A stretch of DNA of 64,000 bases from an uncultured Flavobacteriales bacterium. GTDB taxonomy: Bacteria > Bacteroidota > Bacteroidia > Flavobacteriales_G > Salibacteraceae. Position 1 is the stretch's first letter; the number at the start of each line of letters is the position of its first letter. The stretch lies in the NCBI GenBank assembly GCA_943788145.1, contig CALSPD010000001.1:1-64000 (forward strand), given 5' to 3'. Shown piece by piece: positions 5,014 to 30,395 of this stretch. The notes under the pieces are model-generated. The model was not told where the DNA came from and ran no database searches. It was given only the letters and a program-made list of their open reading frames with translations. Both the position numbers and the translations under genes were made by a program.

Positions 5014-5514
5014 CTAGAATGGGAAAATGGCCCTTCTATTGTCCTTATTTATCAATTTGTAAATCGTTACAAATGCCTCCTCTAATTTTTTATCATTAGG
5101 TTCTCCATGCCACTGGTCAATGTCAATCAAATCAACACCTGTAGAATCCCAGAGATCAATTCTGTCATCAAGAACTACATTCCTTTCTGTTTTTGAAATT
5201 CCTATTTTTTCAATTGACTTATAATAAAGTTGGCCATAATCAGTGTATTTCATTCTTGTATTTGAGCGGGTAAACAATCGATAATTTACATCAAGGTTAA
5301 AGCTTTGTACAACCCATCTTGCATAGTCAGCTTTTGCCGAAGTGTAAAAAACAAGATTGATGTTTTTCATCTTGATCACCTGCTTAAGAAATTCTTTGAG
5401 TCCGGGCCTATGATATAGAAATAAGTAACCCTTTTTATCAACTAAATCTAATCCCTCAATTTCAGAATAAGATGAATAAATTAGACAATGGTCTAAGTCC
5501 AAAATAACATTCAT
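5014..5514 (-). CDS. FCP1/NIF-like HAD-superfamily phosphatase
   Basis: A 166-aa protein of the HAD superfamily. The nucleophile motif at the N-terminus is ILDLDHCLIYSS, where the usual DxDxT/V becomes DLDHC. It is followed by YHRPGLKEFL (about residue 33), VFYTSAKADYARWVV (about residue 55), in which the Ser/Thr motif is expected, and VVLDDR (about residue 113) as the acidic metal-binding motif. This is the NIF/FCP1/CTDSP-like layout. The His-Cys in motif I is a departure from the canonical residues, so activity is uncertain. It lies 46 bp downstream of the AddB-like gene on the same strand and may be co-transcribed with it. Confidence 0.72.
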   Translation of the reverse strand: MNVILDLDHCLIYSSYSEIEGLDLVDKKGYLFLYHRPGLKEFLKQVIKMKNINLVFYTSAKADYARWVVQSFNLDVNYRLFTRSNTRMKYTDYGQLYYKSIEKIGISKTERNVVLDDRIDLWDSTGVDLIDIDQWHGEPNDKKLEEAFVTIYKLINKDNRRAIFPF

Positions 5515-5560
5515 GAAGTAATTTTATATCTTAAATAGAACATATTGTATAATTAGGAAC

Positions 5561-6394
5561 TCATGACAATGGTGTCGGAAGGTTATTATGAACATCACTT
5601 ATTATTTGTTTAATAAGAAGATCGAAACGTTGGCAGGATTCTGAACTAAATGGAACTAATATTCTATTTTGAACTGGTTCATCTGAATTTATAATGATAT
5701 AGTCAATTACTTCTTCAAATGAGGGAACCAATTTCCAGTACATCCAAGTGTTTAATCTAATTCCGAAACTAGGGTGAAGAACCACCTCTTTCAAACTCGT
5801 TAAATCTTCAAATTTTTGAATTTCGGTCCTTAAAAAAAACACGTTTGATCGATAATCCATTAATCTGGTTCTTCCAGACTTATATTCTATTCGGTCAACA
5901 AATGAATGAACATCGCATTCAGAACCTTGAATCGATAAAGTTAACTTCATCCTTGACTCTAACTCCATAATCTTTAATGATTCATCTTTTTGTAATGATT
6001 CAATATCACTTTCTAGTATGTTAGATACTTTTTTATGAATCTTACGTAGTGAATTTTGTATTTCCTCATCGTCACTACCTAAAAAGAACCGGTTGTCCTT
6101 TATAAAATCTATGTCGTAAACCAAATCCTCAACTTGATATGGTAAATGAACAATGTCATCCTTAAAAATATCTTTTCCAAGGAAAGGTTTATATAAATGT
6201 TCTAAGAAAGAATGGACTTGAGATCCAATTTCTTGGTCTAATTGTTCTTCGAATTGACTGAATTTCTTCTCTCTACCGATTATATATTCTTTGTAGTAAC
6301 TATGGGGATTACTATAATATCTAACCAGTTGGTTAGAAGAAATTCGTGAAAAGTGATTGAGTATTAATTTTAAACTGTTATCCATAATATTCAA
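5561..6394 (-). CDS. Orphan AddB/RecB-like PD-(D/E)XK nuclease domain with altered active site
   Basis: This 277-aa protein resembles the C-terminal nuclease domain of AddB/PD-(D/E)XK exonucleases without the helicase-like part. Visible motifs are ISSNQLVRYYSNPHSYYKEY (about residue 18), EIGSQVHSFLEHLY (about residue 55), VHSFVDRIEYKSG (about residue 163) and TRLMDYRSNVF (about residue 177). In active relatives the last motif is DYKTG; here the catalytic Lys is Arg and the following residue is Ser. No iron-sulfur cysteine cluster is evident. It therefore looks like a domesticated or inactive DNA-end-binding domain, or one using a displaced Lys. The start could be ATG 6394 or ATG 6385. Confidence 0.62.
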   Translation of the reverse strand: MNIMDNSLKLILNHFSRISSNQLVRYYSNPHSYYKEYIIGREKKFSQFEEQLDQEIGSQVHSFLEHLYKPFLGKDIFKDDIVHLPYQVEDLVYDIDFIKDNRFFLGSDDEEIQNSLRKIHKKVSNILESDIESLQKDESLKIMELESRMKLTLSIQGSECDVHSFVDRIEYKSGRTRLMDYRSNVFFLRTEIQKFEDLTSLKEVVLHPSFGIRLNTWMYWKLVPSFEEVIDYIIINSDEPVQNRILVPFSSESCQRFDLLIKQIISDVHNNLPTPLS

Positions 6395-6410
6395 ATCACA
6401 GAAAGTTGAT

Positions 6411-6652
6411 AAATGATATTTTGAGTTCTCACATAGAACAACCCAAATAGGATGGAAAAAGTGTTAAGACCCAAATAGGATCTTCCAAATCTGATCAACT
6501 TTTTGAAAAAACTCCTCTGGATCTTTTCCTGGAGAATCACCATCCCACCATCCTTCTCCATTTTCGGGTTGTACCCAAATGTAATCTTCACCATCAATAG
6601 TTACCCAAATTTTGAAACTGTCATAAAAAATTTCCATATTAAAAAATGTTTT
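6411..6652. repeat. 242-bp direct repeat, copy 2, flush against the left end of IS copy B
   Basis: Nearly identical to 2964-3206, with one deleted base. The right edge is the first base of the IS copy B inverted repeat. On the left it runs on from unique sequence (gttgat) at the 5' side of the AddB-like gene. The two repeats and the IS copies thus frame a 3.2-kb cargo. Confidence 0.93.
6464..6637 (-). CDS. Small hypothetical protein in repeat copy 2, altered C-terminus
   Basis: The second copy of the tryptophan-rich small protein, 57 aa from ATG 6637. An upstream in-frame start at 6667 would lie inside the IS. It is identical to the first copy up to QIWK and then ends ILFGS because of a 1-base deletion relative to the repeat at 2964. 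Which copy keeps the native end cannot be told from the window. Confidence 0.4.
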   Translation of the reverse strand: MEIFYDSFKIWVTIDGEDYIWVQPENGEGWWDGDSPGKDPEEFFQKVDQIWKILFGS

Positions 6653-8079: not shown

Positions 8080-9504
8080 ATGAACCGACTATTGCCTTTA
8101 CTATTATGCTGGGTATGCGTATCGATAGATACTCTGCAAGCGCAGCGCCTGACCGATCATTTAGATCAAAAGTGGTCTAGCTATATTGGACTTACAACCT
8201 TTCGCACAAATTTTAAGCTATACAATAATTGGATCATTATCGGATCAAACGGAGATCATGTGAATGACCCAATGTATATGGATGAAAATGCAGGGGTTAA
8301 AATCGTTGACCTTAAATCAGGTGAAATCGTAAAAACACTTGAAGAAGGCGAGTTTTGGGATACAGATGTGAATGGAATTGAAGTAGTTGGCGATAAGCTT
8401 TACTTTGGCAACGATAATGAAGAGTTTTTCTGCTATAACTTGAAAACCTTAACTGAAGAATGGAGTATACACACCAGTGGTGATATTGAGTGCGCACCTG
8501 CCTTGAGCGATATTAATGGTGATGGCATCAAAGAGCTAATCATTGCTACAGAAGCAGGCGAGATTTCTGCTTTAAATGCCAAAGACGGCAAGTATTTATG
8601 GACTTATCGTGTGCCAGGTTTTGAAGGCTACGCATCTAGTAACACTAATATTGTTGCTTTCAAGATTTTTACAACTTTCAGAACAGCTGGTACGCATTTC
8701 TATACAACACCCTTAATGGATGATGTAAATAATGATGGAATTAAAGATGCTATCATATCATCTGGCGATCATTATACCTATTGTGTTAACGGTAAAACAG
8801 GTGCTTTGATATGGAGAGTTGAGGGCGGAGAGTATACTCACGAAATCATTAAATATAACGGGAATTATCTTGTTCAAACCAACGAAAATATTTTCAATAA
8901 TGAGGAGACTGTACAATACAGTTCATGGGATTTTGATTACGTAAGAGTATTAGATAAAACCGGACGGAAGAATCAAACAGCTAACATTAGAATACCCAAC
9001 TATTATTCTGGCGGTGACTTTTTAGTGGAAGATGATAAGATTATAACACCCATAAGTGATGGTATAGCACAAGTTGATATTAAAACAGGAATGACAAGAA
9101 TCATCTATTTTCCTGATGTAGAAGAATACGAGCAGTTTTCAGACGGCAACATAAATTTTACTAAGCCAAAAACTTATAGCAAGGCACCTGCGGCATGGGA
9201 TAAGGCTCACATACCATATATCACTGTAAATACAACTTGGAAAAAGTGGACTAGACCAACAACTGTGTGTAAAGCAGAAGTTTTGCCTGAGTGGGAAGGC
9301 GAAGAGTACTGTTTTCATTACAGTGACCGTTTGGTAGTTGTTCGTCATGATTTTTCATCAATAAGAATCATGTCAATAGGTGAAAACGAACCTGGAACTA
9401 CAAAAACTACAGAGGCAGAGCCAATGTTTTTTAATAGAGGAGGGCAGAGCTATTACTTATCTGCTACTTCAGATGGAAAGTTGCACTTATTCGAAATGAA
9501 ATAA
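8080..9504 (+). CDS. Secreted PQQ-like/FG-GAP beta-propeller protein
   Basis: A 474-aa protein with an N-terminal signal peptide ending near LQAQ (residue 22). The body consists of propeller blades: repeated segments such as VKIVDLKSGEIVKTL and NGKTGALIWRVEGG are typical PQQ-like blades. Calcium-type FG-GAP loops appear in SDINGDGIKELIIATEAG and DVNNDGIKDAIISSG. There is no T9SS sorting domain or lipobox, so it is probably periplasmic. It is the first of four closely spaced genes (22 bp to the next). A binding or scaffold role is inferred from the fold; no substrate can be given. Confidence 0.7.
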   Translation: MNRLLPLLLCWVCVSIDTLQAQRLTDHLDQKWSSYIGLTTFRTNFKLYNNWIIIGSNGDHVNDPMYMDENAGVKIVDLKSGEIVKTLEEGEFWDTDVNGIEVVGDKLYFGNDNEEFFCYNLKTLTEEWSIHTSGDIECAPALSDINGDGIKELIIATEAGEISALNAKDGKYLWTYRVPGFEGYASSNTNIVAFKIFTTFRTAGTHFYTTPLMDDVNNDGIKDAIISSGDHYTYCVNGKTGALIWRVEGGEYTHEIIKYNGNYLVQTNENIFNNEETVQYSSWDFDYVRVLDKTGRKNQTANIRIPNYYSGGDFLVEDDKIITPISDGIAQVDIKTGMTRIIYFPDVEEYEQFSDGNINFTKPKTYSKAPAAWDKAHIPYITVNTTWKKWTRPTTVCKAEVLPEWEGEEYCFHYSDRLVVVRHDFSSIRIMSIGENEPGTTKTTEAEPMFFNRGGQSYYLSATSDGKLHLFEMK

Positions 9505-9526
9505 ATCACCCTAAAACAAAATAAAA

Positions 9527-10921
9527 ATGAAAGCTCTAAAATTGAAAAAATCAGCAACTGTGGTCATAGTTACCTTGATTGCTGCAGGTCTTGTTGGTCT
9601 CTTGTTCTCTTTATTCAACAAAAGCAAAAAACAATACAGCGTCAAGCCACCTATCGAAAACCTTGATGTTGCATATCAGGAGTTTACCTATCAGCCTAGT
9701 TCAGGCGCTAATTTTGTGGATCTGTGTTACGGTCATCAAGTTAATATAGCTCCGTACTCGCTGGTAGATCAAAATGGCAACCCAATAGACCGTGAGGTAA
9801 GTTTGAAATTTCGCACATTCAATAATGCAAAACAGATTTTTTTATCAGGCATACCAATGGACAGTCAATATGGTCAATTGCAAAGTGCAGGTATGTTTGA
9901 GCTAAAGCCAGCCGAAGAAGGTGTTTTTATTGCCAAGGATGGAGATGTAAGTGTAAATCTAGTTTCTAAGGTATCAGATCCTTCAGATTACAATTCATAC
10001 TTATTTGAAGAAGGCGAAGGCTGGATTGAAATTGAGCGATTTAAAACAGAAGAAAACGTATTGCGCAATGAATCAATCATTGAGTTAGATACCTTGATAG
10101 AGATAGGTGATCGTAAGTTGCGCAAGGATAAAGAGCGCAGAAAGCGAACAGAAAATTACTTTCAATTAGATTTTAAAGCAAATCAAGTAGATGGTTTTAA
10201 TGCCAATAATCTTGATAATTCATTGTGGGAGTATGTTGAGGTGAATGGACAAGACAACCCGCTTAATCGTAAAAATCAGCGCAGGCCTTGGTCTGATGTA
10301 CGTTTATCAAAAAACAGTGATGGTACCTATACCATTAGATTGTTAAGCCAAATGGCCGGTAAACGAGGAGGCGAAACCGAAATTACTTTCAAAGCTAGGC
10401 CGGTTACCACTTCAGATAATCCTGAAGAAGAATTGGCCAAATTGGATGCTACCATTCAAGAAATGGATCAATATTTTGCAGCACTAGAAGAGCAACGTGC
10501 AGCACTAGAAGAGCAACGTGCAGCACTAGAAGAGCAACGAAGGCTGTGGACCATGCAGAATAACATTTACAACACGTTTCAACTAGCACAATGGGGGATA
10601 TTTAACTGCGACAAAGTGTTTAATGAACCAACACTAGCAAGTGGAGAGGTAGATTTTAGGATTAATGGCGATGATCCGTTAAACGGGACGGTGTACATTT
10701 TGTATGATTCTATAAACTCTGTGGTAACTGCTTCGGTGCATAGCTACCAATCTGCTTATGACCTTTTGCTTACCCAAGACTATGATGGTGAAATAGAGTT
10801 GTTTGTGTTCACAGGAAATGGTGCGTTTTATAAAAATGAATTAAAATCAGGACAAGTTCCTTCTGTGGTAGATTTTAAGGAATTGGCATCAATCACAGAA
10901 TTAGAGTCATTTGTTTATTAA
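9527..10921 (+). CDS. Membrane-anchored protein with beta-rich ectodomain and coiled coil
   Basis: A 464-aa protein with one N-terminal transmembrane segment at about residues 10-30, then an extracytoplasmic region. Residues about 60-190 resemble a widespread Bacteroidota ectodomain: a segment starting NIAPYSLVDQNGNPIDREV, then IFLSGIPMD, then AGMFELKPAEEG. A charged helical stretch around 300-345 contains three identical AALEEQR heptads. The C-terminal 110 residues are beta-rich. No enzymatic motif is seen. Its place between a propeller protein and an LprI-like protein suggests an envelope role. Confidence 0.55.
   Translation: MKALKLKKSATVVIVTLIAAGLVGLLFSLFNKSKKQYSVKPPIENLDVAYQEFTYQPSSGANFVDLCYGHQVNIAPYSLVDQNGNPIDREVSLKFRTFNNAKQIFLSGIPMDSQYGQLQSAGMFELKPAEEGVFIAKDGDVSVNLVSKVSDPSDYNSYLFEEGEGWIEIERFKTEENVLRNESIIELDTLIEIGDRKLRKDKERRKRTENYFQLDFKANQVDGFNANNLDNSLWEYVEVNGQDNPLNRKNQRRPWSDVRLSKNSDGTYTIRLLSQMAGKRGGETEITFKARPVTTSDNPEEELAKLDATIQEMDQYFAALEEQRAALEEQRAALEEQRRLWTMQNNIYNTFQLAQWGIFNCDKVFNEPTLASGEVDFRINGDDPLNGTVYILYDSINSVVTASVHSYQSAYDLLLTQDYDGEIELFVFTGNGAFYKNELKSGQVPSVVDFKELASITELESFVY
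10478..10540 (+). repeat. Three tandem 21-bp repeats encoding AALEEQR
   Basis: Three near-perfect head-to-tail copies of gcagcactagaagagcaacg plus t or a (the last copy ends in a), encoding a heptad-register coiled coil. Near-identical 21-bp units are prone to slippage, so copy number may vary between strains and change coil length without breaking the frame. Confidence 0.92.
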
Positions 10922-10925
10922 GTGT

Positions 10926-11336
10926 ATGAAAAAGTTCATTGTTTTATTCCTGTTGCTTGTTACATGCACCATTAAGATGCGTGCTCAACAAACCTTTGAG
11001 ATAGATCAGAAATTAGAAGAGTGCATGAATGATTCGACAAACTTTACCACATATGGTATGTACGCCTGTATAGACAAAGCAATAGATGCTTGGGATGTTC
11101 GATTAAATAATTCGTATAAAAAACTAATAACCAAACTACCAAACCAAGATGCAGCGCGGCTTCGGGCAACGCAAAGAAAATGGATCGAACTACTTGAATT
11201 AGATAAAACGCTGCTACGTGAATTCACCAGTCATCAGCAAGGTACCATGTATGGTATATCGCATGGTTTGGTAGTGGTAGAATTGGTGAAATCTCGTGCG
11301 CTCATTTTAGAGATGCTAGAAAAAGAACTACTCTAA
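10926..11336 (+). CDS. LprI-like (DUF1311) secreted protein
   Basis: A 136-aa protein from ATG 10926, 4 bp after the previous stop. An upstream in-frame start at 10911 would overlap that gene and spoil the signal peptide, so I prefer 10926. A signal peptide covers residues 1-21 (ending MRAQ). The mature part has the DUF1311 pattern: cysteines in EECMND and YACIDKAID, then WDVRLNNSYKKL and LRATQRKWIELL. Members of this family include the mycobacterial lysozyme inhibitor LprI; inhibitor activity here is only inferred. Confidence 0.7.
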   Translation: MKKFIVLFLLLVTCTIKMRAQQTFEIDQKLEECMNDSTNFTTYGMYACIDKAIDAWDVRLNNSYKKLITKLPNQDAARLRATQRKWIELLELDKTLLREFTSHQQGTMYGISHGLVVVELVKSRALILEMLEKELL

Positions 11337-11379
11337 CATCTTACAAATCCAAATAAAAAAAATAAACTCAAACCAAATA

Positions 11380-12114
11380 ATGAAAAACATCATTGTAATT
11401 GCAGTAATTACCATTACTTCCATTCTAATCATTAGTCTTACGTATTTAAATCGTTACGCATTTATCACATCAACCTCAACCATTGAAACTACGGGTTTAG
11501 GCAGTGTAGATTTCGAATCTAACCACATTGTTTGGGAAGGTTCTTTCGTAAGAGAAAACTCAACTCTGGTAGATGCGTACGCTGCGCTAACAAAAGACAG
11601 AGAAATAGTGCTTAATTACTTAATGGAGCAAGGTATTTCAAAAGAAGAAATTGTTTTTGGATCAGTCTCAACTAGTGATTTAACAGAAAATGTTTATAAT
11701 GACGAAGGAAACAGAATAGGCGATAACTTTCTAGGATATCACTTGAGACAAGAAGTGAAGATTGAATCCGATAATATTGAATTAGTTGAATCCGCTTCTA
11801 GATTAATTACAGATGTCTTGAATAGCGGAGTAGAGTTCTACTCTTACGAACCACGCTACTATTTTACCAAGCTTAAGGACTTAAAACTTGATTTGCTCTC
11901 GAAAGCCACAGAAGACGCAAAAACGCGCGCAACCATTATTGCCAATGAAGCTGGTGCAGATATAGGAAAGCTCATATCTGCCGAAATGGGCATTCTTCAA
12001 ATAGTTGGGCAATATTCGGATGATGAGTATTCTTGGGGTGGTACCTTCAATACTACCTCGAAACTCAAAACTGCCTCCATTACGATTGACTTGAGGTATG
12101 AGATTGAGAATTGA
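11380..12114 (+). CDS. SIMPL domain-containing protein (DUF541)
   Basis: A 244-aa protein with an N-terminal hydrophobic anchor (residues 5-22) and a SIMPL/DUF541 domain. Family hallmarks are an N-terminal TTGLGSVDFESN strand, a helix with DREIVLNYLMEQGISKEEI, then SVSTSDLTENVYND, and a second half with SKATEDAKTRATIIANEAGA. SIMPL proteins sit in the periplasm or outer envelope; no reaction is known. It is the last gene of the 8080-12114 cluster, 43 bp after the LprI-like gene. Confidence 0.78.
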   Translation: MKNIIVIAVITITSILIISLTYLNRYAFITSTSTIETTGLGSVDFESNHIVWEGSFVRENSTLVDAYAALTKDREIVLNYLMEQGISKEEIVFGSVSTSDLTENVYNDEGNRIGDNFLGYHLRQEVKIESDNIELVESASRLITDVLNSGVEFYSYEPRYYFTKLKDLKLDLLSKATEDAKTRATIIANEAGADIGKLISAEMGILQIVGQYSDDEYSWGGTFNTTSKLKTASITIDLRYEIEN

Positions 12115-12170: not shown

Positions 12171-12503
12171 CTGATTCCCCCAGAACTTACCAGTAAGATT
12201 TAGCTACAGCTAAAGTTAGTCTATCAAAGAGTCTTTCACCGTATCGTCTGAGGTTGAGTTTGTAACAAAACTCATTGAGATAGTTCTGTAAGTACCTTCC
12301 CTTTATCTTGTGGAAGATACCCAGTAGTGTGCGTTTGGCGTTACTTATAGCAATACGCACCCAGTGTTCTTTACAGTTTATCTATGTGGGAAATTGTTTG
12401 GTGAATTCTAAGATGTTCATCGGACTTTCTATTATTTAGAAGCACGAATCAACTATCTCAGAACATAATCTATTTACGCTGTGGTAAATTGCAGGGGAAT
12501 CAG
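12171..12503 (-). mobile_element. Internally deleted IS1595 derivative (MITE-like, 333 bp)
   Basis: Both ends match the full copies: ctgattccccc at 12171 and a slightly altered aggggaatcag ending at 12503. In reverse orientation it keeps the transposase start (MNILEFTKQFPT) and the last 60 or so residues (from VRIAISNAKRTLLG to the end), but everything between is deleted. It cannot encode a transposase, yet both termini are present, so the intact copies could move it. It lies 47 bp upstream of the retroelement target gene. No 8-bp target duplication is visible (taattata and aaaacaat). Confidence 0.9.
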
Positions 12504-12550: not shown

Positions 12551-13183
12551 ATGAAAAAAGTAAGTCTGATTTTTATCCTTTTAGATGTCTTAAGTAGTAT
12601 GTCTTACACACAAACCGTAACCATTGGTACCCAAGTATGGATGACCAAGAATTTGGATGTTGCAACCTTTAGAAACGGGGACCCCATACCTCAAGCGAAA
12701 ACTGATGAAGAATGGGATAAAGCAAGATGAAAACGAACAACCAGCTTGGTGTTATTACGATAATGACCCAAGCGAATGGGGAAAAATATGGTAAGCTGTA
12801 TAATTGGTATGCAGTAAACGATCCGAGAGGTCTTGCACCAGATGGGTGGCATGTGCCTTCTGATGCTGAATGGACAATTCTAACCGACTATTTAGGTGGA
12901 GGAGATGTTGCAGGCACAAAAATGAAATCTACTGACTTTTGGGCTGATTATGAAGGCAATTCAGGCAATGGTACCAACGAAAGCGGTTTCTCAGGTCTTC
13001 CGGGCGGTTACCGTTACGACAATGGACGTTCAGCGACATTGGCAAGTACGGTTACTGGTGGAGTTCTACGGAGTACGGTACAGACATGCCTGGGGCCGCT
13101 ACCTGTATTACTACTATGGCATGTATACAGGGACAACTACAATAAGGAGAGATGGGTTCTCTGTCCGTTGCCTCAGGGATTAG
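12551..13183 (+). pseudogene. DGR target gene: secreted FISUMP-domain protein ending in the variable repeat (apparent frameshifts)
   Basis: A FISUMP-domain protein (Fibrobacter succinogenes major paralogous domain, C-type-lectin-like fold), about 210 aa once frames are joined. It has a signal peptide from ATG 12551, then QVWMTKNLDVATFRNGDPIP, YGKLYNWYAVNDPRGLAP, DGWHVPSDAEWTILTDYLGG and GFSGLPGGYR. The variable end follows, finishing GFSVRCLRD and TAG at 13181-13183. Frame breaks are extra bases near 12724 and 12774, and missing bases (relative to TR) near 13026, 13087 and 13121, with a compensating extra base near 13145. The first and last frames coincide. The 3' 191 bp are the VR, so this is the protein the retroelement diversifies. 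It is a pseudogene as read, but possibly intact if the indels are technical. Confidence 0.82.
12991..13181 (+). repeat. DGR variable repeat (VR)
   Basis: 191 bp at the 3' end of the FISUMP gene, aligning with 13738-13930. By hand I count about 20 substitutions opposite TR adenines (about 11 A-to-T, 9 A-to-G). Only about two differences fall elsewhere (G-to-A in the GCG/ACG codon, and one near 13145). The last 30 bases (13152-13181) are identical to TR, as expected for the initiation-of-mutagenic-homing segment. Most changed codons are AAC or AAT, many becoming Tyr. Three single-base gaps and one extra base also separate VR from TR. Confidence 0.92.
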
Positions 13184-13225
13184 AATTTATTTGATTCATT
13201 TGACAATTTGATTATTTGATAATTT

Positions 13226-13249
13226 CCGCGAAGCGGTCGAATTTTTTTT
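13226..13249 (+). terminator. Hairpin and T-tract downstream of VR
   Basis: ccgc-gaa-gcgg (13226-13236) is followed after five bases by eight T (13242-13249), 45 bp after the VR end. It could terminate the target gene. It could also play the part of the hairpin that lies just downstream of VR in the Bordetella phage DGR and aids retrohoming, although the short stem and larger distance make termination the simpler reading. Confidence 0.5.
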
Positions 13250-13256
13250 AAAAAAA

Positions 13257-13598
13257 ATGGCACTTTACAGTGATTTACCAGTTTATAAATCTACGTATGA
13301 CTTATTGCTTGCTATTTTTCGCTTTACGAAAGATTTTGGCAAGGAGTATAAGTACACTGTTGGTGAGAGTTTGAAAAAGGAGACGATAGAGCTGCTAACA
13401 TTGATTTACAGAGCCAATGTAAAACGCGATAAACAAGAGGTATTGCAGGAAGCTCGAGAGCGCATAGAAGTAATACGCTTGTTTATCCGTTTGATGAAAG
13501 ATATGCAGCAGATTAGCGTGAAACAGTTTGTTCAAATCAATGAGGTGGTTGAAAATGTATCTAAACAATTATCGGGATCGCAAAAAGCGATGGGCTAA
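13257..13598 (+). CDS. avd: DGR accessory variability determinant (Avd), four-helix-bundle protein
   Basis: A 113-aa, strongly helical, basic protein starting ATGGCACTTTACAG right after a T/A tract. It has the four-helix-bundle (bAvd/S23-like) pattern: LPVYKSTYDLLLAIFRFT, then FGKEYKYTVGESLKKE, then LIYRANVKRDKQEVLQEARE, then IRLFIRLMKDMQQISVKQF. Avd proteins bind the reverse transcriptase and the TR RNA and are needed for mutagenic cDNA synthesis in studied DGRs. The position between the target gene and TR/RT is the common Bacteroidota DGR order. Its frame is intact, unlike its neighbours. Confidence 0.87.
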   Translation: MALYSDLPVYKSTYDLLLAIFRFTKDFGKEYKYTVGESLKKETIELLTLIYRANVKRDKQEVLQEARERIEVIRLFIRLMKDMQQISVKQFVQINEVVENVSKQLSGSQKAMG

Positions 13599-13737
13599 AA
13601 ATAGTTTCCGGTCAGAGTTCTGAATGTTAAGGCAAACAGAAGCGTGCCAATTAAATCCGGTAACCCGCTGCATGAGTAAAGACCATACGTTGAATAAATG
13701 GTATTGTGTAGCTAAAACAACAGTGGTTACTATTACG

Positions 13738-13930
13738 TCAGGTCTTCCGGGCGGTAACCGTAACAACAATGGAACATTCAACAACATTGGCAAGAACGGT
13801 AACTGGTGGAGTTCTGCGGAGAACGATACAAACAATGCCTGGAACCGCAACCTGAATTACAACAATGGCAATGTAAACAGGAACAACAACAATAAGCAAA
13901 ATGGGTTCTCTGTCCGTTGCCTCAGGGATT
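13738..13930 (+). repeat. DGR template repeat (TR)
   Basis: 193 bp between avd and the reverse transcriptase, homologous to VR and conspicuously rich in AAC/AAT codons. In the frame matching VR it encodes runs of Asn where VR has Tyr, Asp, Ser or Gly. This is the signature of an adenine-mutagenised template: the copy is transcribed to RNA, and adenines are misread during cDNA synthesis. The final 30 bases (13901-13930) match VR exactly. A strong hairpin follows at 13941-13967. The overlapping open frame is a by-product and not a gene. Confidence 0.92.
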
Positions 13931-13940
13931 CAATGGAAAC

Positions 13941-13967
13941 AAGCCCTCGGTTCACACCCGGGGGCTT
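13941..13967 (+). other. Stable hairpin at the 3' side of TR, just before the RT gene
   Basis: aagccctcgg (13941-13950) pairs with ccgggggctt (13958-13967) through ten positions, one of them a T-G pair, with a 7-base loop, followed by a TA-rich stretch. It starts ten bases after TR and ends 12 bp before the RT start codon. It could end or structure the TR RNA, act as a partial terminator between TR RNA and RT mRNA, or be a recognition element. No equivalent follows VR at the same distance. Confidence 0.7.
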
Positions 13968-13978
13968 TATTTTACATT

Positions 13979-15214
13979 ATGCAACTTGATTTATTTAGTC
14001 ATATAGATTATCAGCAACTAACCGAGGAATTGTTTACTGCCTATTTTGATTGCCGAAAAAACAAACGAAACACCTTAAATGCCCTCAAATTCGAAAAGCA
14101 CTTAGAGCAAAATGTTTTTAAACTTATTGATGATATTTACAAAGGCAACTATCAGCTTGGCCGTAGCATCGCCTTTATCGTAAACAAACCCGCAAAACGA
14201 GAAATCTTTGCCGCTGATTTTAGGGACAGGGTGGTTCATCACTGGCTTATCAATAAACTCAATCCCCTTTTTGAGAATCTTTTTATTCAAGACAGCTATG
14301 CCTGCCGTGTGGGCAAAGGCACGCATTATGGCGTAAAACGTGCCGATTCTTTCATAAAAGCTTGTTCCGAAAATTACACCAAAGACTGCTACATCTTGAA
14401 GTTAGATGTGCAGGGCTTCTTTATGCACATTAATCGCAACTTACTTTTCACAATGCTTGAAAAGTTTATTCATCAATACTACACGCAACCGGATAAGGCA
14501 TTTGTTATAGAAATTACCCAAAAAATCATTTTCAACCAACCCACTCAAAATTGCATCATCAAAGGCAATAAAAAAGATTGGGTATGGTTTACCCAAAAAT
14601 AAGAGTCTGTTTCACAGTCCGCCCAGATTGTGGTTTGCCTATCGGTAATTTAACCTCACAGGTTTTTGCCAATTTCTACATGCACCAGTTTGATGCTTTT
14701 GTCAACAAAAGAATTGGGATTAAAATACTACGGGCGTTACGTAGATGATTTTGTACTCGTGCATCCCGACAAAGATTATTTGAAATCACTCATCCCCAAA
14801 CTTTCCGACTTTCTACTTTCAACCTTACAGCTCACGCTTCATCCAAAGAAAATATACCTGCAACATTACAGCAAAGGAGTAAAGTTTTTAGGCACTGTAA
14901 TAAAACCCAACAGAATTTACATTGCCAATCGCACCAAAGGGAATTTTTACAATGCGATAGAAAAGCAAAACAAAATCATTCAAGACCATAAACTCACCAA
15001 AGAAAACAAAGCGGCATTTTTAAGCAGTATGAACTCTTATTTGGGTATAATGAAACATTACAAAAGCTACAAACTGCGAAAGAAAATGATCTGCAACAGA
15101 CTTTCAGGCTATTGGTTTAATCACGTGTATTTGAGTGGGGGTATAGCTAAATTTGTTTTGAAAGTAAGACCAGTGAAAAAGAACCAACGAAACGCTAACA
15201 TGGGCTATACGTAA
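13979..15214 (+). pseudogene. DGR reverse transcriptase (three apparent 1-base insertions)
   Basis: About 410 aa when joined. RT motifs appear in order: KREIFAADFRDRVVHHWL and DSYACRVGKGTHYGVKRA, YILKLDVQGFFMHINR (catalytic Asp), GLPIGNLTSQVFANFYM (the SQ is the DGR-type motif 4), YGRYVDDFVLV (catalytic YVDD), and LTLHPKKIYL then GVKFLG. A stop at 14602 comes from extra bases at about 14583, 14625 and 14708. Their sum is three, so the C-terminal half (to TAA 15214) is in the same frame as the N-terminal half. As read it is broken between motifs 3 and 5. It is short, with no maturase or intron structure, so not a group II intron RT. The start ATG 13979 follows the TR hairpin. Confidence 0.88.
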
Positions 15215-15418
15215 TGCAGGTAAAAGTGCTGATATTAAAGTAATTACATTAAATAAACTAACTGCTAAACGGAAATTGAAGTATTTGAAAAACCCGCACT
15301 ACGCATAGCCGGGGCCGTTGGCATCAAGCCAAAATGAAAGAACATTTGATGAAAAATCAGTGCTTCGACATATATTGCCGGACTTTTCGCTTCATGGACA
15401 AAAACAATTAGAGGGTAA

Positions 15419-15964: not shown

Positions 15965-16042
15965 CGATCCTATAGAAAAATAGGTCGAATGCCTTATATG
16001 ATGGAATGGCTGTTTAGAATGATCTTCGTCAAAATTCAAATT

Positions 16043-17317
16043 ATGCGATTCATAACTACCCTATTGCTTCTATTCGTTTCAGCTATATCCGTCCAAGCAC
16101 AATGGAATAAAACCAATCTGGGTGGCAGCCGAGACATAGCAGTGCATGATGGAAAAGTGTATGCGTTGACCACAACATTGGGACTTCAAGTAAGTGCAGA
16201 CAATGGCGATACTTGGACGGAAGTTAATAACAGCGCCATTGCAGATCGGAAAGACTTTGTGGTTTCAAGCGGTAATCGTCTGTACATTGCTACATACGGG
16301 GTTAGTAACGCCCACGGCACGCTTTATTACACCACCGATGAAGGAGCAAACTGGACAACAGATACTGTTGGCTTGCCTGACGCTCTTTTTCAACCTCCTG
16401 GTAAAGGTGATGTGCGTTCCATTCACGCCTTTGATAATGGAGAAATTATTGGAACTTTTGGAGGTCAGGATGCCTATTACCACAAAAACAACGCAGATGC
16501 TTCTTGGTCCATTATTCCGGACTTAGCTGATCTGGATCCAGACAATTACGCGAGTTCTGGAGATACAGTCATCGCCTTTGGGTCTTCACCGATTATAAAA
16601 TACAGCACCGACCATTGCGAGAGCTTTCAATCCATTACAGCAACGGGGCTTCCAAGCTATTTTGTCACTTCTGATGTTTATTGGGACAAGGGTGGCCGCA
16701 TTTACCTTGGAGTCAATGCTTCGATTATAAGTAAAACGTAACTCTATTATTCGGATGATTTTTGCGCAACTTGGGATAGCTTGAACATCGCTCCATTTGT
16801 TGGGGTCAACTTCACCAGCACGCGCCAATTGATCACTTCTGTTTTCGCCATGGACAACCATGTTTATTTTGCGCTAAACAACGATGCCGGCAACACCACG
16901 GCAGACATCTTCAGTTCTTCTGATGGGGGTCAATCTTTCATCAAAGACACGGCAGGCTTAACAGTCGATAATTTCTTCACGGAAAATGTTTTGAAATTCG
17001 TCTGGAACGACAATCGACTCTTTAACGTTTGTTCGAACACCGATGTTCACTACACCGATTTGGATGGAATCGTGGGAATCAACTCATCAGTAAGCGATCA
17101 GCAGATTAGCATATATCCAAATCCGAGTTCAGGACTCATCCATTTTTCGCAGTCCGTTCGATTATTACAGCTTGTGAGCGCAGATGGCCGACTTCTCGCA
17201 TCGCCAAACAAACCAGTGAACAACATCGATCTTTCTCCTTATCCAAAAGGAATTTACTTCGTTCGAATTGAAGATACCAAAGGCCTTATTCAACATCAAA
17301 AAATTGTTCTCGAATGA
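16043..17317 (+). pseudogene. T9SS-secreted BNR/photosystem-repeat-like propeller protein interrupted by one stop
   Basis: A signal peptide from ATG 16043 (cleaved near VQAQ) leads into Asp-box-like blades, for example GLQVSADNGDTWTEV and LYYTTDEGANWTTD. The frame stops at TAA 16739-16741 and continues without a shift as LYYSDDFCATWDSL and SSSDGGQSFIKDTAG to 17317. The last 75 residues are a type A T9SS sorting domain (SIYPNPSSGLIHF, GIYFVRIEDTKG). It was therefore a secreted, surface-delivered beta-propeller of about 424 aa. One substitution or a small local error would restore it. Confidence 0.72.
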
Positions 17318-25955: not shown

Positions 25956-28146
25956 TTGAATATGAACTTTCGAAATCTATTCGTTGCATGCCTCGTGCTG
26001 CTTTCTTCCGCCATAATTGCGCAGGACATTACTCTTGAAGACATTTGGAAAAATGGAACGTTTCGGCAAAAATCGGTTTACGGCCTGCGTTCGATGAACG
26101 ATGGTGTGCACTACACAGCCACGGACCGATCGGAAGATAAAGGCACGACCATCAATAAATACAGCTATGAAACGGGCGAGAAAGTATCGGAAATTCTTTC
26201 CGCATCGGAATTAAAAACCCTTACAGGAAATGAGGAAGTAGGTATTGAAGACTATCGCTTTTCGGATGACGAAAAATTTCTATTGATTTCCTTCGATGTA
26301 GAATCGATCTACCGCCACTCAACCGTTGAAAAATACTACGTAGTTGATTTGGAAAACAAGTCAGCCAGATTGCTTGAGGCAGAGGGCAAGCAACGCCACG
26401 CGACATTTTCGCCCGATGGTTCAAAGATCGCTTATGTAGTAGGCAACGATATCTTCTACCAAGACTACAAATCAGGAAAAGTTGTGCAAGTCACAAATGA
26501 CGGAGTGTATAACAGCATTATTAATGGCTATGCCGACTGGGTTTATGAGGAAGAATTCTCCATGTCTCAAGCTTTCTTTTGGTCGCCTGACGGTAAGAAA
26601 ATCGCCTTTTACCGAACGGATGAATCAGCTGTGGTAGAATACAACATGCAAAAGTTCACCGGCTTATATCCTGAAGATTATTTATTCAAGTACCCAAAGG
26701 CCGGAGAAGATAATTCCAAGGTCGAAATACGCATATTCGATCTTCCAACAGCAAAAACATCGCCCCTGGCTTTAGGGGCATATGAATACATACCGCGCAT
26801 CAAATGGACGGAATCGGCCCAATTTCTGGCGGTAATGAAAATGCCAAAGACTTCAGAATGAACTTGAAATTGTATTGGTTGAAACGACTACGCTTTCCAC
26901 AAAATCTATTTATAAAGAGTTTAGCAAAACCTACATCGAGATCAGTGATGATCTTACCTTTTTTGGCAACAACAAAGGCTTCATTTGGAAGACGGAAAAA
27001 AACGGTTACTTCCATCTATACAAATATGACTTAGCAGGGAAAAACGAAGTTGCTCTGACAAAAGGAAACTGGGAAGTGCGTGAATTTCAAGGATATGACC
27101 CTAATACTGAACGCCTTTATTTTACGGCTAGCAAAAAACAGGCCGATGGATACCGAGTTATATTCCGTTTCCATAAAAGGTGGTGAAACAAAGCTCCTGA
27201 GTCCAACAACAGGAAGCTCAAATGTTGCTTTTAGTAAAACATTCAAGTATTACATTCTCTATCACAACGATGCCAATTCACCCAATCGCGTGAGTTTACA
27301 CAGCAATGACGGAAAGGAAATCCGGGTTTTGGAGGGAAAACGATGCATTAAAGGAAAAGATGGCTTCAATGTCGCTTTCAGCGGTTGAGTTTTTTGATTT
27401 CAAAACAAGTGAAGGCATTACCCTGAATGCTTGGATGATGAAACCTAAAGACTTCGATGCAACGAAGAAATACCCGGTTTTAATGTTTGTTTATGGCGGC
27501 CCAGGCTCTCAAACGGTAACCAACGCCATGAGCGGAAACTATTGGTGGCATCAATATTTATGTCAGCAGGGTTATATGGTTGTTTCTGTTGACAACAGAG
27601 GAACTGGTGCTCGAGGTCGTGATTTCCGAACCCAAACCTACGGCCAGCTTGGAAACTTAGAAACAAAAGATCAAATTGAAGGAGCAAAATGGTTGGCGAA
27701 GCAATCCTACGTTGATGCTGACCGGATCGGCATTTGGGGTTGGAGTTATGGAGGTTATATGTCCAGCCTGTGTTTGAGCAAGGGAGCCGATGTGTTTAAG
27801 ACAGCCATAGCGGTAGCGCCTGTAAACCAACTGGCGATTCTACGACAGCATTTACACCGAGCGATACATGGGATTGCCCAAAGACAATGGAGCTGGATAC
27901 GATGACAATTCGCCCATCAATCATGTGGAGGAAAATGAAGGGTAATTACCTATTGGTTCATGGTTCTGGCGATGACAATGTTCATTTTCAGAATTCGGTT
28001 GAAATGATTGACGCATTGGTAGATGCAGACGTTGCAGTTTGATTTTGCCATGTATCCCGAAAGAAACCACGGCATCTATGGCGGCAATGCGCGTTTCCAC
28101 CTGTTTACACTATTAGCTGAGCTTCTTTGTATTGACCAACCTCTAA
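25956..28146 (+). pseudogene. Dipeptidyl peptidase IV (S9) gene with several 1-base insertions
   Basis: A signal peptide (ending IAQD), a DPPIV N-terminal propeller and an S9 hydrolase domain are readable across frames. Intact pieces are 25956-26836, then 26875-27175, 27110-27340 and 27360-27840, then short stretches. The catalytic residues are all visible: Ser in GWSYGGYM, Asp in GSGDDNVHFQN (about 27965) and His in ERNHGIYGG (about 28057). By hand the breaks near 26840, 27170, 27340, 27830, 27933 and 28036 are each best explained by one extra base. It would cleave X-Pro dipeptides for uptake by the adjacent POT transporter. A pseudogene as read. Confidence 0.8.
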
Positions 28147-28284
28147 ACTCAGGTGCAATAACAACCATCAATTAAATACATTTCTATATTCGCCCCATAC
28201 ACCTCGAATGGTGGTCAATCCAAATGTGGCGAAGCCATTTCCAACTTAAATCTAACACTTAAAAACTCACTAACAATCACCTCT

Positions 28285-30395
28285 ATGAGCGCAAGTTAAA
28301 ACTGGTCACCCTCAGGGCACTGTAATGACCCTGCTCTTTATGGCGGAAATGTGGGAGCGTTTCTGCTATTATGGCATGCGTGCGCTGCTCATCGTTGTAT
28401 CTAGTTAAGTCGCTTCTGAAGGGCGATGCGGAAGCCTCGCTTGGATTCTATGGCGCTTATACCGCGCTGGTCTATGCGGCGCCCGTTTTAGGCGGGCGGA
28501 TGGCGGACCAACTATTTAGGCTATCGGATACGCGGTAATTCCTTGGAGCCATATTGATGGCCATTGGCGAATTCATTAATCCTAGGAAACCACATTGTTC
28601 CGAGTATTTCAGCTGACTCATGGCTTTGTTATTAGGAATGGGGGCCTTCATCGTTGGTAATGGATACTTCAAGGCAAACATCTCTTCCATTGTTGGTAAC
28701 ACTTTACGACGACTGGCGGATCCAAGAAGGGATGCCGGATTCACGATTTTCTACATTGGTATTAACATTGGAGCCCTCCTGGCCACCACACTGGTTTGCG
28801 CCGACGTTGGAGAACACGTATGGGTGCTGACATAGGGTTTTGCTTTAGCAGGATTCGGTATGATCGCGGGTATGCTTTCGTTTCAATTCTTAGGCCGATT
28901 CATTGGTGGTCGAGAAGAAATTGATAGCAATGCCGCGCCAAAGGATCCTCGAAAAATCACGGAATGCAGCCGTGGATAGGCCCAAGGTACTCGACCACTT
29001 AATCATGGCTGCATATTGTTGGCTCTTGGATCTCTGGCGTTAATTCCACTGCTGCTATACCTTGCTTGATCTTAACTACTGAATGCGTTAGGCCTGATTT
29101 TCTTGGGGACTATGTAGCTTCATAGCCTACTGCTCGGTTCGGCAAGGTATTAGGCACGGCCTTTAAGGAAGCTGGAACAATGTATCTGGACGCGACCGAA
29201 TGTTTTCCCTCTGATCATATCTTATGTTCTTTAACATCACCTTCTGGGCTTGCTTTGAACAGGCGGGAACGTCGCTGACGCTGTTTGCGGACAGAAACGT
29301 GGACCGCGATGTCTTCGGGATGTTGGATAATGGGCGCAGCTTCGATGACGCAGTTCTTCAACCCCTTGTTCATCATTGTTTTTCGGTTCCATCTTCCGTC
29401 GGCTGATGTGGGTGGCGCTCTGACTAAGATCGGCACGCAACCCTAGTATTCCATTGAAATTCGCATTTGGCCTAATTACAACTTGCCCTATTGGTTTCTT
29501 AATGCTTACATAGTCGGTGGCTGGTATCATGCTACGGAAAACATATCTAGTTCCTCTTTGCATCGTTATCCTTCGTCTACATGTTCCACACTACGGGTGA
29601 GCTTTGTCTTTCTCTCCGATTGGGACTCTCCATGGTGACCAAACTATGGCCCCCAAGTCAATGGCGGGCACTGCTATGGGTGCGTGGTTTTTAAGTCCTT
29701 CGCGGGATTGCCAACTTATTAGGTGGCAGGCAGATCAGCTGCTCAACTTAACAGGTGGCGAAGACATCGGCTGGCGGTGGAGGCTCAGTAGAGAAAGGTA
29801 GTTTTACTTCCGAAACCACTGTAGAAGAAGGTCTAGAATTAGTCGGAAGTGACCAATTCGCAACGTGGCCTTCGTTTTATGTTGTGCCAGAGGGTATTGA
29901 TGTATCTTCAAAGGTGCGCAGAGAAGTTGAGGTTGCAAAGAACATCACGCTTGCAAAATTCAATGACATTAGAGATTGGGTTTTACTTAGAAACAGTCTT
30001 GATAACGGTGTTAGCTTAAATGAGTTTTTGGATAGCCGAACAAGTAGTCCTGCTATTGCCACTGCCGATGAATGGCTGCAAATTGAGCAATGGGATCAGT
30101 TAAGAAAAAGCTACGGAGAGATTATAAATAAGGATCTGCAGTTTGATGATGAGAATAGACCGCTAGGACTTGCTGATTGGAAGTATTATAGAGGGGACTT
30201 CGAAGTTCAATCGTCAAAATATGGGGATCAACCTTTGGAAAGTGCACTTAAAGTGCAAATGGACAGCGTGCAGGGAATGCGGCTGAACAAATATGTTGAT
30301 GTATTCACTACTATTGGATTGTGCTTCTGATAATTGCATTGATTATCATTGTTCTGAATAAACCGCTTGAAAAATTAATGCACGGAGTCAAGTAG
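28285..30395 (+). pseudogene. POT/PTR2-family peptide transporter, densely frameshifted
   Basis: It starts at ATG 28285. Fragments spell a proton-coupled oligopeptide transporter: [15 protein letters not shown] (PTR2 signature, about 28340), LLGMGAFIVGNGYFKANISS (about 28630), GFTIFYIGINIGALLATT (about 28735), AGFGMIAGMLSFQFLGRF (about 28850), MAGTAMGAWFLS (about 29659) and the tail NKPLEKLMHGVK (about 30360). A 190-residue soluble stretch (29755-30330) lies before the last helix. Frames change every 30-100 bp, mainly through extra bases. Adjacency to a DPP IV gene is a familiar Bacteroidota peptide-use pair. Confidence 0.78.

Follow-up and report, generated by a model that had tools for sequence, protein, structure and literature searches.

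The 64,000-nucleotide stretch analysed here (the window) is the start of contig CALSPD010000001.1 from an uncultured Flavobacteriales bacterium (assembly GCA_943788145.1). Positions 12551 to 15214 carry an element recognised from its sequence as a diversity-generating retroelement (DGR), in which a target gene ending in a variable repeat (VR) is followed by avd, a template repeat (TR) and a reverse transcriptase (RT). Between the VR and a small hairpin downstream of it lies an array of short units with a period of 8 nt, a feature that recurs at many other DGR target sites. The features of the locus are listed below with the evidence for each; L023 and L024 denote the related cassettes of two metagenome-assembled genomes (MAGs) labelled Flavobacteriales and Algoriphagus, respectively.

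12551–13183, plus strand: target gene with a signal-peptide-like N-terminus (by eye) and a FISUMP (Fib_succ_major) domain; found by profiles, with intact homologues in L023 and L024
12991–13181, plus strand: VR; 23 substitutions relative to the TR, 21 of them at its adenines, and four single-base indels
13185–13225, plus strand: 8-nt-periodic array directly after the VR; five cores (TTTGA four times, TTTCC once), spaced 9, 8, 8 and 8 nt
13226–13236, plus strand: target-site hairpin CCGC-GAA-GCGG, then a T run; 4-bp stem, similar loops in relatives
13257–13598, plus strand: avd (bAvd-like, 113 aa), intact; PF22296 at 1.1e-13, ratio of non-synonymous to synonymous substitution rates (dN/dS) 0.024 against L023
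13611–13737, plus strand: RT-7-like structured RNA; RF03028, 64.3 bits, E 6.6e-14, ending one base before the TR
13738–13930, plus strand: TR; alignment to the VR and genome search for copies
13942–13966, plus strand: terminator-like hairpin and T run between TR and RT; recurs in relatives
13979–15214, plus strand: DGR RT; open from 13979 to 14599, first frame resumed C-terminally to 15211, shifted frames between
12190–12375, minus strand: IS1595 (ISXO2-like) transposase remnant, a neighbour outside the DGR; PF12762 at 2.7e-8

The coordinates first proposed for the TR (193 bp) and the VR (191 bp) were confirmed. In a global alignment of the two repeats, 21 of the 23 VR substitutions face the 67 adenines among the 193 TR bases, while the remaining two face the 126 non-A bases (Fisher p 3e-9). 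The repeats also differ by four single-base indels (three TR bases missing from the VR and one extra base in it), and their final 30 nt are identical. No further TR copy was found in the 2.89 Mb, 31-contig genome (stated completeness 86.6%), the other listed matches being merely 14–23 nt long with E values of 0.26 or worse. The VR is placed at the 3' end of the target, whose FISUMP domain (PF09603, 7e-25) is supported by both Pfam and NCBIfam, the C-type-lectin fold being assigned from the family. Avd scores above the cut-off of the bAvd profile (PF22296, 1.1e-13) and below that of the NCBIfam Avd profile (6e-15). The RT consists of two open pieces matching phrog_1423 (1.8e-48 and 3e-29); the motif GLPIGNLTSQ sits in shifted frames, and YVDD is present, back in the first frame. 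In a tree without a group II outgroup the nearest neighbours of the RT are DGR RTs. The best solved-structure match of the intact L023 homologue (5.7e-35) is 8ub7, a 328-aa chain of the length of the RT of Bordetella phage BPP-1, which we take to be the BPP-1 enzyme, while group II RTs match this homologue at 8e-9 or weaker. Because of the adenine-specific differences between TR and VR, the Avd protein, the lectin-family target and an RT placed nearest to DGR RTs, the element is classified as a DGR of a known kind, composed of FISUMP target, VR, avd, TR and RT. The initial annotation had made the same call, and both the enrichment at TR adenines in a program-made alignment and the placement of the RT among DGR RTs uphold it. 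Its further statement that the element could not be matched to a described one was too strong, since Fib_succ_major/DUF1566 proteins are reported as DGR targets in the accessible text of two papers (PMC4159848, PMC8143477), and relatives with open RT frames exist (L023, L024 and L025, with the N-terminal part of the RT 79–92% identical).

The array that separates the VR from the hairpin is the sole exact match in the genome to a three-unit pattern. The lag-8 score reaches 18.0 for a set of 81 non-redundant VR sites, 37 of which exceed 2, compared with -0.1 after other genes (7 of 300 above 2) and -2.2 after TRs (3 of 81). Arrays trail separate VRs within one genome, and an MTTY core is common to the arrays of unrelated loci. 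The arrays of L053, L057 and L095 are pyrimidine-rich and mixed in composition and keep the period. Viral contigs were searched with the pattern AACNMTTTAACNMTTTAWCNMTTT, the reversed pattern serving as control. The match lies directly after a VR with a TR in the same stretch in 6 of 36 contigs (none of 16 for the reversal), and an open frame with the lectin-type motif W[ST]S ends at the match in 10 of 36, including those six, versus 0 of 16 (Fisher p 0.022). This value is only a guide, as the ten contigs form six groups (L231/L232/L235; L240/L246/L248; four singles) and the control also holds alike contigs. None of the ten overlaps a previously fetched locus at 90% identity. The other 26 contigs are other things, including simple repeats, so that the pattern alone is unspecific. 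One contig found by the pattern alone, L232, carries a tandem row of four variable targets of lectin type at 344-bp spacing (5398–6430), each followed by an 8-nt-periodic array; no RT was found in the 10 kb examined. The lag-8 scores and the search counts give good support to the array as a genuine feature that recurs at many DGR target sites; no description of it was found in the searchable literature. A post-VR array of the same period and a different unit (GGNAATCT) was also seen in the Faecalibacterium phage FP_Lagaffe (L121, 2088–2133).

The hairpin departs from the BPP-1-type target site, which has a GC-rich stem of 7–10 bp and a 4-nt GRNA loop and lies 4–34 bp after the VR (PMC3240598, accessible text); in the window a 4-bp stem with a 3-nt GAA loop begins 44 nt after the VR, with the array between. 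A GC-rich hairpin was counted within 110 nt at 51 of the 81 VR sites versus 91 of 392 control sites, the 4-bp hairpin of the window falling below the counting threshold and outside the 51. A GNA or GNNA loop is present in 28 of these 51 and in 6 of the 91 control hairpins, and 33 of the 51 begin 24–45 nt after the VR. With these loop counts, the GRNA rule that Guo et al. gave (PMC3240598) is extended; loops of three bases (GRA) have been described in archaeal DGRs (PMC4372165).

Upstream of the TR, the RNA match of 64.3 bits lies below the RF03028 gathering score of 116.8 bits, so that the leader is called RT-7-like rather than RT-7; it is matched in 6 of 10 relatives searched as well. The terminator-like hairpin between TR and RT was surveyed in 49 loci listed by hand. 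In 33 of them the TR precedes the RT start by at most 300 nt; in the other 16 the TR overlaps the RT start or is placed elsewhere. The hairpin occurs in 17 of the 33, compared with 2.0 expected from dinucleotide shuffles, the 33 being unclustered and most of the 17 belonging to the close clade of the window. The stems vary in sequence even among close relatives. This arrangement suggests that the RT may be expressed by read-through of the hairpin.

In the mechanism proposed here, the RT-7-like leader, the TR and the terminator hairpin would be transcribed as one RNA. RT and Avd would copy this RNA into cDNA, making mistakes at its adenines, and this cDNA would take the place of the 3' terminus of the FISUMP gene. 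Recognition of the recipient repeat, and the reason why the VR and not the TR is overwritten, have been dissected in BPP-1 (PMC3240598, accessible text). Because the 3' ends of TR and VR are identical over 30 nt, the likely mark of the recipient is the flank of array and hairpin, which follows the VR and not the TR. Because it follows the VR, not the TR, and precedes the hairpin, the array is most likely an extended target-recognition element, which the retrohoming complex would read as an iterated site; that this site serves the Avd ring, presumably a pentamer, is a guess. Alternatively, the array may merely ease the opening of the DNA, an AT-rich repeat favouring cruciform extrusion of the adjacent hairpin without any sequence-specific reader. 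The position of the array between VR and hairpin, the preferred start of the hairpins at 24–45 nt, the AT-richness of many arrays and the requirement of BPP-1 homing for a hairpin or cruciform (PMC3240598, accessible text) are in keeping with this. However, AT-richness predicts neither a fixed 8-nt period nor a shared MTTY core, and the pyrimidine-rich arrays retain the period, which leaves this explanation unlikely. Pairing of the array with the flanks of the DGR RNA was also considered and does not explain the array.

Intact colinear cassettes occur in L023, at 88% nucleotide identity over 12617–15220, and in L024, at 82%. The N-terminal part of the RT was found in none of the 12 same-genus genomes searched; its nearest neighbours come from MAGs that carry the labels Flavobacteriales, Chitinophagaceae and Algoriphagus. 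The flanks of the cassettes and the N-termini of their targets differ among these relatives. In the window, four genes at 8080–12111 share 91–98% protein identity with a 4.3 kb contig of the sibling genome G003, whereas those parts of 16001–56000 that match G003 or its fellow sibling G004 show 63–86% DNA identity, far below that stretch. As judged by these comparisons, 8080–12111 is a recently shared stretch adjoining the DGR, and the cassette lies in mosaic surroundings. The window also encodes a type IX secretion system (T9SS) sorting domain (PF18962), which together with the relatives of the DGR points to a Bacteroidota host. Near another Flavobacteriales DGR, a group II intron match was seen (L036, 3982–4057).

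In the assembled sequence the element is interrupted: base shifts break both RT and target. The RT frame has a stop at 14600 and changes of frame within 14.58–14.71 kb, so that no open RT frame is present in this assembly, and the target changes frame within 12.71–12.78 kb and again inside the VR. The initial annotation, from which these breaks were absent, had described the DGR as complete and its surface protein as undergoing accelerated evolution; neither description is supported, the RT and target frames being interrupted here. Compared with L024, the shifts in the RT and in the pre-VR part of the target are extra bases; compared with L023, they amount to a net gain of bases. To place them in context, the 22 window genes with a protein in the fetched stretches of G003 and G004 were aligned allowing frameshifts. 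Nineteen align without any, another is shifted once, at its extreme edge, and the remaining two, at 25960–30330, are heavily affected: the gene of a DPP-IV-type peptidase (by domain) with 6 shifts and that of a POT-type transporter (identified by eye) with 16. Of these 22 shifts, 21 come from extra bases (two at a time in five cases), and both genes are open in G003 and G004. The peptidase alignment contains no in-frame stop, while that of the transporter, at 63% identity, contains eight, so that its shift count is rough. The patch resembles raw long-read sequence and is probably an unpolished part of the assembly. Because these two genes carry dense shifts, nearly all of them extra bases, assembly error is most likely the cause of the breaks in RT and target and is favoured over decay. 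The three bases missing from the VR, opposite in sign to the other shifts, speak against it.

A DGR in real decay, its RT and target inactivated by frameshifts in this lineage within a mosaic island, with only Avd and TR looking intact, appears unlikely. The breaks affect RT, target and VR alike, the IS1595 remnant lies directly upstream, and the four genes just upstream are frameshift-free relative to G003, as decay would have it. Against this, the dN/dS values relative to L023 are low in Avd (0.024) and in both RT pieces (0.23 in the N-terminal and 0.12 in the C-terminal part), so that coding constraint lasted until recently at least; leader and TR are 95–97% identical to L023; and similar extra-base shifts occur in the peptidase and transporter, which are intact in the siblings. 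Separately, two open stretches at 15989–17317, Sortilin-Vps10-like and with a T9SS sorting tail, lie in one frame with a stop near 16740 between them, and may be one broken gene.

Two other explanations of the array fare worse than DNA opening. That its 8-nt units are a by-product of homing, duplicated when strands slip or are transferred repeatedly at the edge of the VR, is improbable: units within a locus are often alike (by eye, e.g. L031), but in several loci they share little beyond the core (by eye, L116 and L103), unrelated loci have that core in common, and 13183–13225 is identical to L023 at 43 of 43 nt, though the VR is only 80% identical. A frame-independent stop cassette, with 8-nt units placing TAA or TGA in all three frames behind a hypervariable 3' end, is highly improbable and as the sole reason for the array largely refuted, as three-frame stops do occur at 27 of the 81 sites against 10.7 expected from shuffles but the 54 sites lacking them retain a lag-8 score of 13.5.

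Taken together, we consider it quite probable that the window holds a horizontally mobile DGR cassette of a large non-BPP-1 branch, with the array as a probable extended target-recognition element and the breaks most likely due to assembly error. A wider proposal is put forward only tentatively: most DGRs outside the BPP-1 branch may mark the recipient by an array of period 8 (in some, 7) between VR and hairpin, read by the retrohoming complex, perhaps with each subunit of the Avd ring taking one unit, and thereby give the transfer its TR-to-VR direction. This would be a second, undescribed mode of recognition, revealing remote targets without a nearby TR. If the array is a recognition element, the array-less BPP-1 model would be atypical of the diversity sampled, directionality would be directly testable and the DNA sequence by itself would suffice to find remote targets, a prospect suggested by the four tandem targets of L232.

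Compared to known systems, the element shares with BPP-1 the order target-VR-avd-TR-RT, the Avd protein, a DGR RT, a post-VR hairpin and adenine-biased VR changes (18 of 22 in BPP-1). In BPP-1, however, the hairpin follows the VR after 4 nt, without an array, and has a stem of 8 bp and a GAAA loop, and the Rfam-matched RNA (Phage_DGR) is 3' of the TR, whereas the RT-7-like RNA of the window is 5' of it. The archaeal DUSEL4 DGRs likewise have three-nucleotide (GRA) hairpin loops, but their hairpin lies inside the target gene and the portion of the text covered mentions no array (PMC4372165). The DGR of the Bacteroides uniformis phages Bacuni F1/F2 combines a DUF1566/Fib_succ_major target with bAvd, as in the window (PMC8143477, accessible text), but is phage-borne, and its post-VR repeat has a lag of 7, not 8 (L114). 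The closest counterparts are the Bacteroidota MAG cassettes L023, L024 and L025, which have the same gene order but open RT and target frames; L023 differs further in its flank, adjoining a gene that by eye resembles 2-oxo acid dehydrogenase E2. Identity to the N-terminal part of the window RT is 92% in L023, 80% in L024, 79% in L025 and 69% in L030. The RT-7 leader is shared with L023, L024 and L030, L025 being unmatched, and all four carry the TR-RT hairpin, the GNA hairpin loop and the array.
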